Source: Candidatus Wolframiiraptor sinensis (GTDB lineage: Archaea; Thermoproteota; Nitrososphaeria_A; Caldarchaeales; Wolframiiraptoraceae). Taken from it: a DNA stretch of 64,000 nt. Location: contig JALNJX010000004.1 in NCBI GenBank assembly GCA_023268255.1, forward strand, positions 1-64,000, given 5' to 3'. This document shows, in pieces, positions 21,181 to 28,237 of this stretch. The notes under the pieces are model-generated. The model was given only the letters and a program-made list of their open reading frames with translations. It was not told where the DNA came from and searched no databases. Position numbers and translations under genes: made by a program. Position 1 is the first letter of the stretch. Every line of letters begins with the position of its first letter.

Positions 21181-21555
21181 ATGTCTCTGGACCCGGCCTT
21201 TGCGGCGAGCTCCACGGATCCCGTTCTCAGGGCTATTGTCACGGTCGGCGTCCTCGTCTTCTTCGCGAAGATCTTCGCGAGCATGTTCTCGAGCCTCAGG
21301 CTTCCGCCGGTCGTCGGCGAGCTCTTGGCCGGAGTGATCTTCAGCCCCTACGCGCTGGGAGGCGGGATAATAGTCTTCGGAGAGCCCCTAGTCGTCTTGA
21401 ACGATTATGTTGAGGCGTTCGCCGAGATAGGCGCGATCATGCTACTCTTCTCTATGGGGCTCGAGATGGGGGCTGGCCAGCTTGAGGGAAGCCGGGATGT
21501 GGGTGGTTCTAGTCGCAACCCTCGGAGCCGTGATCCTATTCATCGCCGGATATGA
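21181..21555 (+). CDS. Na+/H+ antiporter (CPA2-like), N-terminal part, frameshifted
   Basis: The first about 100 residues are the start of a monovalent cation:proton antiporter: LRLPPVVGELLAGVIFSPYALGG and FAEIGAIMLLFSMGLEMG are conserved family segments. After GQL the frame leaves the family pattern and ends at 21555 in unrelated sequence. The rest of the transporter is in the next frame from 21482. One extra T in CTTGAGG at 21481-21487 explains the break: with one T fewer the protein reads GQLREAGMWVV. Either a sequencing error or a real mutation. Confidence 0.85.
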   Translation: MSLDPAFAASSTDPVLRAIVTVGVLVFFAKIFASMFSSLRLPPVVGELLAGVIFSPYALGGGIIVFGEPLVVLNDYVEAFAEIGAIMLLFSMGLEMGAGQLEGSRDVGGSSRNPRSRDPIHRRI

Positions 21556-22408
21556 GTTTTATAGCTTGAGCGGGATGCCCCCTATCTCGGCGCTCTTCAT
21601 CGGGGCGATAATGGTCGCCACAAGCCTGGCCATAAGCTCCAAGGTCCTGGAGAGCCTCGATCTTCTGAAGACGGAGGAGGGCGTGCTGCTGATTAATGCC
21701 GCCGTAATAGATGACGTGCTCGGGGTCGCCGTTCTCGCGATCATAACAGCTGTAGTAGTTCACGGGACGATAAGCCTCTATGATGCCGCGAGGATCGTGA
21801 CCGCCTTCTTCGCGATCTGGTTCGCGATGGTGGGATTCGGCGCATACTTCCTGCCGAGGGTGATGGAGAGGGCCATGTCGCTCGGAGTCGAGGGCGCGGT
21901 CGAGGCCGCCGCAGTAGCATCCGCCTTCGTCCTCGCGGCCATAGCCGGAGCGCTTGGATTATCTCCGATAATCGGGGCTTATGCAGCGGGAATGGCCATA
22001 GCCGAGTCGAGAGCGCTCCAGCACGTGAAGGATTTCACCAGGCATATCAACACCGCATTCAGCCCGATATTCTTCACGGTAGTGGGAGCTAGGATGAACT
22101 TGGGAGCCGTCACCGACCAGGTCCTCGTCGGGATACTCATGATGACGGCACTGGCGATCACGAGCAAGTTCACCGGCGGGTTCATGGGCGCGATGATAAA
22201 GCTCAGAAACGGCGTTAAGAGCGCGAGAGTTGGTGTGGGGATGATCCCGAGGGGGGAGCTGGGCCTTATAATAGCTAGCCTAGCCCTCAGTAAGGGCGTA
22301 ATCGGTCAAGATCTCTACGCCCAGGCGGTCTGGATGGTTGTCCTCACTTCGGTAATCGCCCCAATCATACTATCCAGGATGTATCGCGCGGAGCTGGAGA
22401 AAAGCTAG
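21482..22408 (+). CDS. Na+/H+ antiporter (CPA2-like), C-terminal part
   Basis: 308 residues with nine or so membrane segments, continuing the antiporter begun at 21181. INAAVIDDVLGVAVLAI contains the paired Asp residues that carry Na+ and H+ in this family, and MIPRGELGLIIASLAL holds the conserved Arg-Gly-Glu of the last third. Joined to the upstream part, the full protein would be about 408 residues, normal for NapA/KefB-like carriers without the regulatory domain. The TTG at 21482 is the first codon of this frame and probably not a natural start. Confidence 0.87.
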   Translation: MREAGMWVVLVATLGAVILFIAGYEFYSLSGMPPISALFIGAIMVATSLAISSKVLESLDLLKTEEGVLLINAAVIDDVLGVAVLAIITAVVVHGTISLYDAARIVTAFFAIWFAMVGFGAYFLPRVMERAMSLGVEGAVEAAAVASAFVLAAIAGALGLSPIIGAYAAGMAIAESRALQHVKDFTRHINTAFSPIFFTVVGARMNLGAVTDQVLVGILMMTALAITSKFTGGFMGAMIKLRNGVKSARVGVGMIPRGELGLIIASLALSKGVIGQDLYAQAVWMVVLTSVIAPIILSRMYRAELEKS

Positions 22409-23691: not shown

Positions 23692-25161
23692 TTGCTTGGA
23701 GGAAGCGTTAAGGCGTTGAGCGAGGATCTCAGGGAGTACTCGAGGCTTCTCGAGAGGGTTCTGGCGAGATTCCCGGAGCTGAGTAGAGAGGAGCTTGAGG
23801 CGATGGTCGAGGCTAAGCTGAGGGAGTCTAGGCTCCTGAACAGGGTCGGGGCGCTGCTGCTGGTCGCGGAGGAGCTCGGCGCATTCAGGGAGGGAGAAGA
23901 CGTCGGCGAGATAAAGTCCTATGCGAGGATCGGGAGCCTCGTCCCCGGCCTCCGCGATGTCTCAGTTCGGGGAATAGTATATGCTTTATCAGGCCCGGTG
24001 GAGGCGGGAGGCCATAAGCTTCTCAGGCTCAAAATGGGCGATGAGACTGGCTCCGTGAACCTGATAATCTGGGATGATAAGGTTGATGAGGTTGATGCTC
24101 TCGGCCTCAGGCTCGGAGATCAAATAGCGGTGCTCCACGGCTATACGAGGGAGAGAGTTGAGACCGGCAAGCCGGAGCTCCACGTCGGCTCCGGGGGAGC
24201 GGTCGCGAAGCTAAGCGAGGGCGCACGCGACCCGAGAAGCTTCTATCTCGATCTCGGAGAAGCCCTAGAGGCTGGGGACGGCGTATACGATGTGAGGGCC
24301 ATAGTCTTGGACGTCGGCGAGGAGAGGCAGGTGAGCACGAGATATGGAGAGGCGAGCATCCGGGAGATTAGGCTCATCGGAGAATCGGGCGAAACCAGGC
24401 TGACGATCTGGAGGGATAGGGTTACCGAGTTCAGAGACATCAAGGTCGGCGAGCGCATATACTTGACCGATGTAAGGCTTGAGGGGGGCCGCGCCGCGCT
24501 AACGCCCAGAAGCATCCTCGCCATCAGGGAGAGTCCATCAGAGGAGACCCTCAGGATCATCGAGGAGAGGAGAGTTCACGAGCTCATCCTAAGAGTTCTG
24601 GACGTTGTCGAGAGGAGAGCCGGCGTCATCACGATCGCGACAGACGGCAGGGATGTAATCAGGGTGCAGCCTTGCCCGCCGGGGGTCAAACCCGGCGACC
24701 ACCTGCTAATCAAGGATGCTGTGAAGGAGATTAGGCGGGGCAGGATAAGGCTGTTATGCGGCGAGGCAGGCGTCCAGAGGATCGAGCCCGCTCAGCCCAT
24801 CGAGCCGCCAAACAGGCTCATCAAGCTCTCGGACATCCTGTCTAAGCGGGATGCGGAGCTTCTCGACGTGATAGTCGAGGGCATACTCTATACGAAGACT
24901 CAGCCATTCAAGGTGAGGACGAGGTTCGGCGAGGTCGAGAAGGTCGGGTTCTGGCTGAAGGACGGGGACGCCGCTGTGCAGGGATCAGCATGGAGAGGCA
25001 AGGCCATGGAAATCGCGGCAATAGAGGAGGGAACAAAAATCAGGCTGAAATGGGTGAGCATAAGAACCAATATCTTCAACGAGCCCGAGATCCAGCTCGA
25101 TGAAGACTCGATAATAGAGGTTTTAGAAAAGCCGAAAGAAGAGGGGAAGCTCAAGGGATAG
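23692..25161 (+). CDS. Replication protein A-like single-stranded DNA-binding protein
   Basis: 489 residues from a TTG at 23692. A helical N-terminus (1-75) is followed by OB folds at about 90-175 (VRGIVYALSGP...LLRLKMGDETGSVNLIIWDD), 205-280 and 390-480 (VRTRFGEVEKVGFWLKDGDAAVQGSAW). The W-D at the end of the sheet and the repeated GSVNLIIW pattern are typical of archaeal RPA/replication factor A. It would coat single-stranded DNA in replication and repair. It overlaps, tail to tail, with the HAD phosphatase gene. Confidence 0.85.
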   Translation: MLGGSVKALSEDLREYSRLLERVLARFPELSREELEAMVEAKLRESRLLNRVGALLLVAEELGAFREGEDVGEIKSYARIGSLVPGLRDVSVRGIVYALSGPVEAGGHKLLRLKMGDETGSVNLIIWDDKVDEVDALGLRLGDQIAVLHGYTRERVETGKPELHVGSGGAVAKLSEGARDPRSFYLDLGEALEAGDGVYDVRAIVLDVGEERQVSTRYGEASIREIRLIGESGETRLTIWRDRVTEFRDIKVGERIYLTDVRLEGGRAALTPRSILAIRESPSEETLRIIEERRVHELILRVLDVVERRAGVITIATDGRDVIRVQPCPPGVKPGDHLLIKDAVKEIRRGRIRLLCGEAGVQRIEPAQPIEPPNRLIKLSDILSKRDAELLDVIVEGILYTKTQPFKVRTRFGEVEKVGFWLKDGDAAVQGSAWRGKAMEIAAIEEGTKIRLKWVSIRTNIFNEPEIQLDEDSIIEVLEKPKEEGKLKG

Positions 25162-25815
25162 AAGCAAATCGATCACTTCCATGACGCCCTCGCCATCCTT
25201 CTTCTTCGCAACGTAATCAGCAATCCTCTTGACCTCTGGATCGCCATCCGCTACCGCCGCCCTGAAGTCCGCCACTTCGAGTAGCTCTTGATCAATCTCA
25301 GAGTCTCCGATCGCCGCCACGAATCCTTGGACGTCGAGGAGCTTAAGCGCCTCCTTTAGGCCAAAACCCTTATCCACGCCGGGCGGGAGAATTATGATTA
25401 CACCCCTATTATTCTTGAATACCACTTTCAGTCCCATGATCTCGACCTCGCGCCTAACCGTCTTGAGATGCTTTTCATTAAATGAGATAGTATTCTCTTT
25501 CTCCTCTATAAATGGTAGGCGTGCGAGTTTCTTGATCATGCTTCTCCAGGTCTCATCTGCAAAGCATCGGTATTCCCCGGTTTCCGGAATATATACTGCG
25601 AGACCGGCCTCCAGAACCCACGCGTCAAAGAGATTCTTCAAATCCCACCTCCTCATGATGTATCTCCTATCCCTGCCGGTTGCAAGGATCAGCTTCCACC
25701 CCATCTCCCTTAAAGATGTCAATGCCTTCCTTATCCACGGCTTCACTTCGTCCTCCCCACCTCGAGTTAGAGTTCCATCAAGGTCGACTGCTAAGATCTT
25801 ACTCGATCTCAACAT
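25123..25815 (-). CDS. HAD phosphatase, phosphoglycolate/glucosyl-3-phosphoglycerate phosphatase candidate
   Basis: 230 residues of the archaeal type IIB HAD group. LAVDLDGTLTRGG is motif I, LATGRDRRYI motif II, DKGFGLKEALKLL gives the Lys of motif III, and AIGDSEIDQELLEVADFRAAVADG motif IV. Relatives are annotated as phosphoglycolate phosphatase. Here it is the last of four overlapping genes after a glucosyl-3-phosphoglycerate synthase, so removing the phosphate from glucosyl-3-phosphoglycerate is a strong alternative. It overlaps the channel gene by 17 bases. Confidence 0.8.
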   Translation of the reverse strand: MLRSSKILAVDLDGTLTRGGEDEVKPWIRKALTSLREMGWKLILATGRDRRYIMRRWDLKNLFDAWVLEAGLAVYIPETGEYRCFADETWRSMIKKLARLPFIEEKENTISFNEKHLKTVRREVEIMGLKVVFKNNRGVIIILPPGVDKGFGLKEALKLLDVQGFVAAIGDSEIDQELLEVADFRAAVADGDPEVKRIADYVAKKKDGEGVMEVIDLLLSLELPLFFRLF

Positions 25816-26548
25816 CTATCCCTCTCGCGTGATATGCCTTAACGATTTTCGCGGAAAGCCACCTAAGCTTCCTGAGGTTCACTATCGGCAGGCTCATTAT
25901 TACCTCAACCTTGTCTCCTGTTTCTTTTATTGAGATAAGCTCCGGGTCGCCGAGAAGCTCCGGCTTAATCTCCTTCATGACCTCCTGTACGGTCTCCTTA
26001 ACTCTATCGAGATCCATTCTCGGCATCATCAGCTTGAACTCTATGCGCCTCGCGATTGACTGGGACTTATTGATGACCGGATGTCTCAAGAAGAATGAAT
26101 TTGGAATTATAACGAGATCTCCATCATATGTTATGAGCTCTGTATCTATTCCACCTATGGACTTGACCACGCCCTCTACATCCCCAACCCTTATCCAGTC
26201 ATTCTCCTTAAATGGTCTCCTGATTGCGAGATACAATTCCGCGGCCATGTTCAGGAAAATATCCCTCATGCTCACGAGCACGAGAATGAATATCACGGCG
26301 CCGATTATGGATATCGCCATTACATCGAGGCTGAGAATGCTAATAGCTATAACCGCGCCCATGAATATTATAAAGTATCGGGCGATTTCAGCGAATTTAC
26401 TTGCGAAGCCGGTGCCAAACCTCGATAAACTCTTCTCAAAGCTCAGCCTAGCATGCTTGCTGAGGAAATACGTTATGACCAGGACTATCACCGCTGAGAT
26501 TATTCTCAAAATCAAATTCAACGTCTCTGGCTCCATTGACATGCTCAC
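25799..26548 (-). CDS. mscS: Small-conductance mechanosensitive channel (MscS family)
   Basis: 249 residues. Three N-terminal membrane segments (about 10-30, 50-70, 75-100) lead into the pore helix and the beta domain RPFKENDWIRVGDVEGVVKS, then GGIDTELITYDGDLVIIPNS, the signature of MscS. The C-terminal alpha/beta domain is short. The channel opens on membrane tension to let out solutes after a drop in osmolarity. Fourth-base overlap with the TrkA-like gene before it and with the phosphatase after it places it in the osmolyte operon. Confidence 0.9.
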   Translation of the reverse strand: MSMSMEPETLNLILRIISAVIVLVITYFLSKHARLSFEKSLSRFGTGFASKFAEIARYFIIFMGAVIAISILSLDVMAISIIGAVIFILVLVSMRDIFLNMAAELYLAIRRPFKENDWIRVGDVEGVVKSIGGIDTELITYDGDLVIIPNSFFLRHPVINKSQSIARRIEFKLMMPRMDLDRVKETVQEVMKEIKPELLGDPELISIKETGDKVEVIMSLPIVNLRKLRWLSAKIVKAYHARGIDVEIE

Positions 26549-27207
26549 CGCATCACCACATTTCTAGACAGCTGTAGTAGCTTTTCAATCTTCTCGCGAG
26601 GGCCCATAATGTATGCGCTCCCGCCGAGACTCACACTGCTAGGTGACGAACTAATTTCACCGGTTCTAGAGACGAATGCCGCGATGACATCATCATGCTT
26701 ATCTAATGCGCTTCTTAACTCATGGAGAAGCTTTTCGTTTAGTATTCTAACCGATGCTATCTCCAAGTTGTTTACAAGCGATGAGAATACCACATTCACG
26801 GGAGCACCCAGAATCTCGAAGAGCTGAATTGTTATCACGCGGTAAGGGTCTATAATGTAATTTATCTTCTCCTTTTTGAAGATCTCGTAATTCAGTGGAT
26901 TGTTTAGTATGCTTACCGTTATCGGGACCGCATTCTCTCTCGCAACTCGACAGTACCTAAGGTTTAGAGAATCGCTCTCGGTCGCGGCTATAACAGCGTC
27001 GAGTAGCTCGCTATTCTCCTTGATATAGTCTTCAACTCGATCAATCTCTTGAAATAAAACTTCTGCTGATGGAAACGTTCGCGAAAGCATCTCTACTTTC
27101 TCCCTCGTGAACTCGATAATTATCAGATGACCATCAGGATCGATTTCCCTAATGGCTCTCGCAGCGAAGTAGGCTGAGTGCCCTCCGCCGATGAGCAGAA
27201 CCCTCAC
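26545..27207 (-). CDS. TrkA/RCK-type NAD-binding regulatory protein
   Basis: 220 residues. VLLIGGGHSAYFAARAIREI is the Rossmann nucleotide-binding loop (variant GGGHSA), DAVIAATESDSLNLRYCRVAR the conserved second half of a TrkA-N domain, and the C-terminal 75 residues fit a TrkA-C domain. Such proteins gate K+ channels or transporters in response to NAD(H) or other ligands. No K+ channel gene adjoins it; it overlaps the synthase and the MscS channel by four bases each, suggesting it regulates osmotic response here. Confidence 0.82.
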   Translation of the reverse strand: MRVLLIGGGHSAYFAARAIREIDPDGHLIIIEFTREKVEMLSRTFPSAEVLFQEIDRVEDYIKENSELLDAVIAATESDSLNLRYCRVARENAVPITVSILNNPLNYEIFKKEKINYIIDPYRVITIQLFEILGAPVNVVFSSLVNNLEIASVRILNEKLLHELRSALDKHDDVIAAFVSRTGEISSSPSSVSLGGSAYIMGPREKIEKLLQLSRNVVMR

Positions 27208-27971
27208 ACGAATCCCCTCTCCGACTCGAGCCCTAAGTCCATTGCCCTAACACCGCTCATATACTTCTCGGCCCACCTCGGATCCACCTTCTGATCTCTT
27301 ATTGCTCTTCTCAGGATAGCGGCCGCGACCTCGTAGGCCATGTCGGTCAAGGCGTGAAGAGGCTTCATGTCGTGATCCTTATAGCCTATGTCCCGCTCCA
27401 CGATCCTGGCCCCGAGCTTGTAAAAATCTATCAGTAGGCCAACATCAACCCCCCAGCCGCGCTCAAACTCCACCTTGTAGAAAAGCTTTCTGAGACCGGC
27501 GATCTCGCCGCTGAGAGGTTGCCTGAACTTGGCTAGCTCCGGGTAAAACATTCTTAGGAGCGGCTTCGCGACGAGCTCGGTCACCCTGCCAGCCGCCCTC
27601 TCAAAGCACCCTTTCACGAATTCTGCCTGCCCTGAAATTATAGGTTCAGCAAGTTTCTCGATGAACTCAGGCGTCACATTCCTTATATCGATGTCAAGAT
27701 ATACGAGGATGTCGCATGATGCTAGATATGCTCCATCTCTCATGGCAATGCCTTTGCCAGGATAAATCAAGTCACTTTGCACAATAACTTTAGCGCCCTC
27801 ACGTTCAGCGATTCTAATAGTATCATCCATACTGCCGCCGTCAATAACTATCACCTCTTCCACGCGATGAGCTTTAAATGCGGTCCTGACAGCGCGCTTA
27901 ACGTAATGAGCCCTATTCTTCGTGGGGAATATCACCGAGATACTCATTCCAGAATTATCATGAATCATCAT
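27204..27971 (-). CDS. Glucosyl-3-phosphoglycerate synthase-like GT-A glycosyltransferase
   Basis: 255 residues. SVIFPTKNRAHYVKRAV starts the GT-A fold, VIDGGSMDDT is the nucleotide-sugar site, YLDIDIRN holds the metal-binding DxD, and FRQPLSGEIAGLR with GWGVDVGLLID matches the acceptor-binding region of GpgS (GT81). GpgS makes glucosyl-3-phosphoglycerate, precursor of the compatible solute glucosylglycerate. An internal ATG (MSISVIFPT) eight residues in is an equally good start. First gene of a four-gene overlapping operon. Confidence 0.78.
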   Translation of the reverse strand: MMIHDNSGMSISVIFPTKNRAHYVKRAVRTAFKAHRVEEVIVIDGGSMDDTIRIAEREGAKVIVQSDLIYPGKGIAMRDGAYLASCDILVYLDIDIRNVTPEFIEKLAEPIISGQAEFVKGCFERAAGRVTELVAKPLLRMFYPELAKFRQPLSGEIAGLRKLFYKVEFERGWGVDVGLLIDFYKLGARIVERDIGYKDHDMKPLHALTDMAYEVAAAILRRAIRDQKVDPRWAEKYMSGVRAMDLGLESERGFV

Positions 27972-28237
27972 GATATATATGCGTTTGGAAAATTTCGAGG
28001 AATACTATGGCAGTTCGCCAAACTACACCGAGATCTATGAGCTCATCCACATATTCGTGAAGAATAATCCGGGCGCTAACTTATCGAGCGCTGTGAATTC
28101 GCATAATAGCGCAATGGAAAGTTTTGGTCTAATGTGGCTCAATGGGCCTCTGATGGGTGAGCGCGCATTTTGCGGCACGAGATGTGGAGAAACGCTTAAC
28201 TATGGTCATTACAGATATGCGTTGAGATGAGAAGGGA

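Follow-up and report, generated by a model that had tools for sequence, protein, structure and literature searches.

Synthesis of a sugar-glycerate by a synthase followed by a phosphatase is known from the mycobacterial GpgS/GpgP pair (family GT81) and from the MpgS/MpgP enzymes of thermophiles, in which a PF09488 synthase and a phosphatase occur as a pair or as a bifunctional fusion (PRK14502). Rhodothermus MgS uses free D-glycerate and would need no phosphatase. RCK proteins are encoded beside presumed pores in the KtrAB/TrkHA systems, and ligand-domain fusions occur within the MscS superfamily. Here, we describe a locus in Candidatus Wolframiiraptor sinensis that unites relatives of these elements in four overlapping genes, found in a 64,000-nucleotide stretch of DNA (contig JALNJX010000004.1, positions 1 to 64,000; hereafter the window). 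We consider it likely that these genes constitute a cassette that spreads horizontally among archaea and serves both to make a charged sugar-glycerate and to release it in a controlled manner. The parts are of known kinds, and their combination, together with the proposed RCK-gated MscS, appears to be new.

The Four-Gene Cassette and Its Distribution

The four open reading frames lie on the minus strand of the window and are transcribed in the order glycosyltransferase (GT), RCK, MscS, HAD, behind a TATA-like element:

27973-27980, minus strand: TATA-like element ATATATAT, candidate operon promoter, found by inspection
27204-27971 (probable start 27947), minus strand: GT81/GpgS-like retaining glycosyltransferase, proposed sugar-3-phosphoglycerate synthase (PRK13915, phmmer, residues)
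26545-27207, minus strand: stand-alone RCK/KTN protein with N and C lobes, proposed MscS gating subunit (TrkA_N, AlphaFold2, MscS neighbors)
25799-26548, minus strand: MscS-family small mechanosensitive channel of 249 amino acids, proposed solute release valve (PF00924, NCBIfam)
25123-25815, minus strand: HAD-IIB phosphatase with intact motifs, proposed sugar-3-phosphoglycerate phosphatase (TIGR01484, motifs, fold)

Recomputed coordinates give successive overlaps of 4, 4, and 17 bases, as an earlier note on this DNA had claimed, and family scans agree with the labels that it had assigned (GpgS-like, TrkA/RCK, MscS, HAD). Aligned GT homologues start near M9, at position 27947 and not at 27971; the annotated start is probably too far upstream and the true start probably 27947. 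Because the TATA-like element lies approximately 25 bases upstream of this position, the transcript would be nearly leaderless.

Comparison with contigs from named relatives puts the window inside Candidatus Wolframiiraptor or beside it. Among 22 Wolframiiraptoraceae genomes, nine encode close homologues of the complete set of four, and none is present in the remaining 13, where the sole MscS matches are weak (approximately 22-28% identity). With genomes treated as independent, exact co-occurrence would arise by chance at approximately 2e-6 per gene pair, a value that is only indicative because some of the family genomes are incomplete and related. The gene order with its short overlaps is found again in Wolframiiraptor, Geocrenenecus, and Nezhaarchaeota, and a more loosely packed version in Hecatellales; the recurring cassettes have overlaps of 1-23 bases or near-abutment and lie between several different flanks. 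Since many genomes repeat the order with nearly the same overlaps, the arrangement is not due to chance, and the four genes form a real unit. A search for this gene order in other archaea, which the earlier note had set beforehand, thus found it conserved in Nezhaarchaeota and Hecatellales with other flanks.

The principal groups are the same in the GT and RCK trees. Both place the window genes with those of Nezhaarchaeota and separate them from those of W. gerlachensis, which fall with Geocrenenecus; this concordance suggests that the cassette travels as one block. Ancestral synteny by itself was discarded as an account of the distribution, as flanks vary between carriers and the window GT is nearer to that of Nezhaarchaeota than to that of W. 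gerlachensis.

A Probable Two-Step Route to a Sugar-Glycerate

The GT matches the solved mycobacterial GpgS at an E-value of ~1e-31 (phmmer) and scores 194.1 bits against the GpgS equivalog PRK13915 (NCBIfam), below the cut-off of 262. Residues were compared using the Mycobacterium tuberculosis GpgS structure (PMC2581804) and published MgS equivalences. The catalytic set of GT81 GpgS (DxD, PGK Lys, acceptor Thr, loop His, and PLSGE) is present and is invariant in GT alignment A1: K114, D134/D136, T187, and H258 of the M. tuberculosis enzyme correspond to K73, D93/D95, T131, and H200 of the GT, which also retains PLSGE and D176 and preserves the acceptor residues Val186/Thr187 as V130/T131. The GT is accordingly similar to GpgS in its family-level match and its DxD and Lys/His/PLSGE positions, and the cassette follows the synthase-then-phosphatase logic of GpgS/GpgP, but the score falls below the GpgS cut-off, the nucleotide-pocket residues are different, and the operon has an added channel and RCK protein. 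We propose the GT as a candidate sugar-3-phosphoglycerate synthase.

The HAD protein belongs to the HAD-IIB family TIGR01484 (72 bits, cut-off 41.8), and its catalytic motifs I-IV are intact (DLDGT at 11, TGRD at 46 with T46, K149, and GDSEID at 170). It scores 113.6 bits against the archaeal phosphoglycolate phosphatase family TIGR01487, below the cut-off of 122.75, in line with the closeness to phosphoglycolate phosphatases that had been claimed previously; its relatives in other cassettes score 94-100 bits. Against mannosyl-3-phosphoglycerate phosphatase (TIGR02461) it scores 36.7 bits (cut-off 244.35). PH1421 and TA0175 are its nearest matches in score and fold; MpgP ranks far lower. These top named matches are what would be expected if the protein were a phosphoglycolate phosphatase of the ordinary kind, or a general sugar phosphatase, whose gene stands last in the operon by chance, an explanation that the comparative evidence renders distinctly improbable. 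None of the 13 GT-lacking genomes of the family was found to carry the HAD gene, which counts against a housekeeping phosphoglycolate phosphatase. Furthermore, in more distant lineages, namely families f25 and f50 and bins of Methanomethylicia and Desulfurococcales, the GT, RCK, and MscS genes are kept, and a HAD-IB gene, of a different HAD class and unrelated to the HAD-IIB of the window, sits between RCK and MscS instead. The Hadarchaeum GT and a HAD-IB phosphatase form one fused protein, mirroring the pairing. Because the phosphatase has been exchanged for an unrelated one in some lineages and a phosphatase is fused to the GT in another, dephosphorylation of the GT product is a much likelier role than housekeeping removal of phosphoglycolate. 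Together with the all-or-none inheritance, these observations bear out the claim of the earlier note that the phosphatase provides the second step, and the enzyme very probably completes a sugar-glycerate.

The phosphatase pairing also bears on whether the GT might instead glycosylate a lipid, a polyprenyl phosphate, or a protein, with the cassette serving envelope stress. Enzymes of the GT2 fold are diverse, and weak matches to AglJ and dolichyl-phosphate transferases were found, but the match to GpgS is far stronger (194 versus 68.5 bits), the acceptor residues are preserved, and the pairing and fusion fit a phosphorylated soluble intermediate, making a role in the envelope highly improbable.

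The synthase of the MpgS/MpgP route belongs to another family of glycosyltransferases, which this genome lacks. Some Thermoproteota MpgS synthases adjoin a HAD-IB protein related to the phosphatase of the sister cassettes: a SerB-like HAD-IB gene lies directly beside the canonical mannosyl-3-phosphoglycerate (MPG) synthase gene in 6 of 20 loci (L200, L203, L211, L215, L216, and L217), with 27% identity between HAD-IB proteins in one comparison. It is possibly an unrecognized MpgP. No MscS match was found within 1.5 kb of the 20 canonical MPG synthase loci. The Nezhaarchaeota cassette phosphatase (L057:2635-3339) has DLDET as its motif I in place of DLDGT.

Identity of the Sugar

The earlier note described the locus as a glucosylglycerate operon. 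The osmolyte-type two-step unit is upheld; the choice of glucose was overstated, as the donor pocket is mixed. The UDP-pocket residues Glu54, Ser81, Arg101, and Tyr229 of GT81 GpgS are replaced by R20, G45, Q65, and W173, and E232 is changed to D176. Q65, W173, and D176 are invariant across the aligned cassette GTs and match Gln66, Trp189, and Asp192 of the GDP-mannose enzyme MgS, so that several donor-pocket residues resemble those of MgS more than those of GpgS. In overall sequence MgS is distant (profile match of ~37 bits), and its use of free D-glycerate is unlike the route proposed for the cassette. In view of this mixed pocket, the product is treated as a sugar-glycerate, of either glucose or mannose.

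That the solute is mannosylglycerate, with GDP-mannose as the donor, or that the GT is dual-specific, with the rest of the cassette working as proposed, is a serious prospect whose chances we place slightly below even. Rubrobacter MpgS offers a precedent for dual specificity. The residue argument is one of alignment alone. The nucleotide-choice positions are shifted toward MgS, including Q65 at the position of the guanine-binding Gln66. The change of S81 to G45 takes away a clash with guanine, which Ser81 of GpgS is said to exclude, and mannosylglycerate accumulates in many (hyper)thermophiles (PMC2581804). Relatives of the cassette HAD-IB proteins pair with MPG synthase. On the other hand, the nearest characterized enzymes by score are GpgS proteins, and the cassette GT retains the PLSGE motif, which has been linked to discrimination against mannose (PMC2581804). 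In favor of mannosylglycerate, again, canonical MPG synthase (PF09488) was not found in this genome or in any of 15 sampled cassette genomes (0/15, versus 37/398 overall; approximately 1.4 expected); mutual exclusion of the cassette and the canonical enzyme is suggestive only.

Pairing of RCK and MscS Genes

The channel protein matches the MscS beta domain (PF00924) at 52.9 bits (cut-off 20.2) as well as NCBIfam MscS models, and its hydrophobic peaks span residues 7-32 and 51-104. It shares this beta domain and hydrophobic pore region with ligand-modulated relatives of MscS, from which the cassette differs in having the RCK subunit encoded as a protein of its own within the operon.

The RCK protein matches TrkA_N above the cut-off, and its C-terminal half has no Pfam match. 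Its AlphaFold2 model (pLDDT 93.4) contains both the N-lobe and C-lobe folds and aligns over its full length with the gating-ring structures of KtrA, TrkA, and MthK; the TM-scores of only 0.46-0.61 are put down to a difference in the angle between its two lobes. In place of the GxGxxG nucleotide loop, the window protein has GGGHSA, and cassette RCK loops in general read GGGHSA, GSTHFT, GSSHYA, or the like; they come with an invariant His10 and the N-P-N core of an NNPxN motif. A glycine-rich GxGxxG-type loop is kept in most MscS-paired and all TrkH-paired RCK proteins aligned, and some cassette-free MscS-paired proteins (f24, f40) also lack it. Cassette RCK proteins may, therefore, sense a ligand other than the usual nucleotides, for which the solute, or the phosphorylated form of it, would be an attractive candidate.

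Homologues of the cassette RCK occur in 11 genomes without the GT81 cassette, and in 10 of these the gene adjoins MscS (seven codirectional; three, from one genus, convergent). In the eleventh, both RCK matches are cut by contig ends, one having a non-MscS neighbor on its visible side. As a control, the 30 best TrkA_N loci (L170-L199) among 121 Thermoproteota genomes were inspected: where the neighbor could be resolved, 15 lie beside MscS (within L171-L195), six tested loci lie beside TrkH, and one lies beside a CLC channel. Stand-alone RCK genes in Thermoproteota thus fall mainly into an MscS-paired group and a TrkH-paired group. Small RCK genes adjoining MscS are widespread in this phylum, well beyond the cassette. 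No report of RCK-MscS pairing was found in the open-access literature, judged mainly from titles and abstracts.

The likeness to KtrAB/TrkHA lies in an RCK protein with the full-length fold encoded beside a presumed pore; the cassette pore, however, is MscS and not TrkH or KtrB, and the cassette RCK proteins lack the glycine-rich nucleotide loop. No TrkH or Ion_trans_2 pore was found in this genome (92.7% complete; Kup and Kdp not searched), and most control genomes were positive in the same searches. Given the gene pairing and the negative pore searches, the RCK protein is read as acting on MscS, probably as a regulatory or gating subunit rather than as a Trk-type K+ regulator. Of the TrkA-type sensor in the earlier note, then, the RCK fold stands and the Trk-type role probably does not. 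A rather unlikely alternative is that the RCK protein regulates a K+ transporter encoded elsewhere and adjoins MscS only as a fellow member of a turgor regulon. The classical role of TrkA/KtrA would fit this, as would a putative cation/proton antiporter gene at 21482-22408 (judged by eye); the failure to find TrkH or Ion_trans_2 speaks against it, as does the repeated placement of RCK homologues beside MscS with or without the GT, TrkH-paired proteins forming the alternative group.

In three f40 genomes, an uncharacterized gene of approximately 240 codons lies just upstream of the RCK-MscS pair (L158:3874-4569, L164:2259-3011, and L165:3667-4386). Its product has no Pfam or NCBIfam match and lacks the GT catalytic motifs; a weak likeness to the GT (hhalign probability 18.8%) was not relied on. 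One of these three genomes (G179) has a canonical MPG synthase.

Proposed Model

In the proposed mechanism, the GT would join a nucleoside diphosphate sugar to 3-phosphoglycerate, as its family and residues suggest, and the HAD phosphatase would remove the phosphate to yield glucosylglycerate or mannosylglycerate, a step with strong comparative support. The MscS channel would vent the solute upon osmotic downshift, and the RCK protein, judging from the gene pairing, would form a gating ring on MscS that tunes its opening to a cytoplasmic ligand. All of these enzyme and channel functions, tension gating included, are deduced from sequence and gene order. A more specific and doubtful version, which we advance tentatively, is a feedback valve: an RCK ring that no longer binds the usual nucleotides would sense the sugar-glycerate, or else the phosphorylated precursor of it, and gate MscS accordingly; if so, the cell would vent solute according to solute level as well as membrane tension.

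Several points weigh against the model. Neither the GT nor the HAD protein reaches the equivalog cut-off of any named enzyme, the GT has Arg20 where GpgS has the ribose-binding Glu54, and three relatives (L038, L064, and L074) lack an adjoining phosphatase. The physical interaction of RCK with MscS is read from gene order only. Finally, a related cassette is present in W. gerlachensis, an organism that has been cultured in the laboratory in a spring-water-based medium, so that salt stress is not an obvious challenge for it.

If correct, the model would tie osmolyte synthesis and release in a thermophile together in one inherited unit and would supply a candidate route to sugar-glycerates in archaea that lack the canonical enzymes. 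It also points to RCK proteins acting on mechanosensitive channels instead of K+ pores; more tentatively, as with the feedback valve, an RCK-gated MscS would represent a second, unrecognized class of RCK target in Thermoproteota beside K+ transporters.

Neighboring Genes and Other Observations

The HAD gene shares its last 39 bases (25123-25161) with the 3' end of a convergently transcribed OB-fold/RPA-like gene (23692-25161), a tail-to-tail overlap. Searches with anti-phage defense models gave zero matches. In Hadarchaeum, the catalytic subunit of the A-type ATP synthase (L069:7470-10844) contains an intein with a LAGLIDADG domain.

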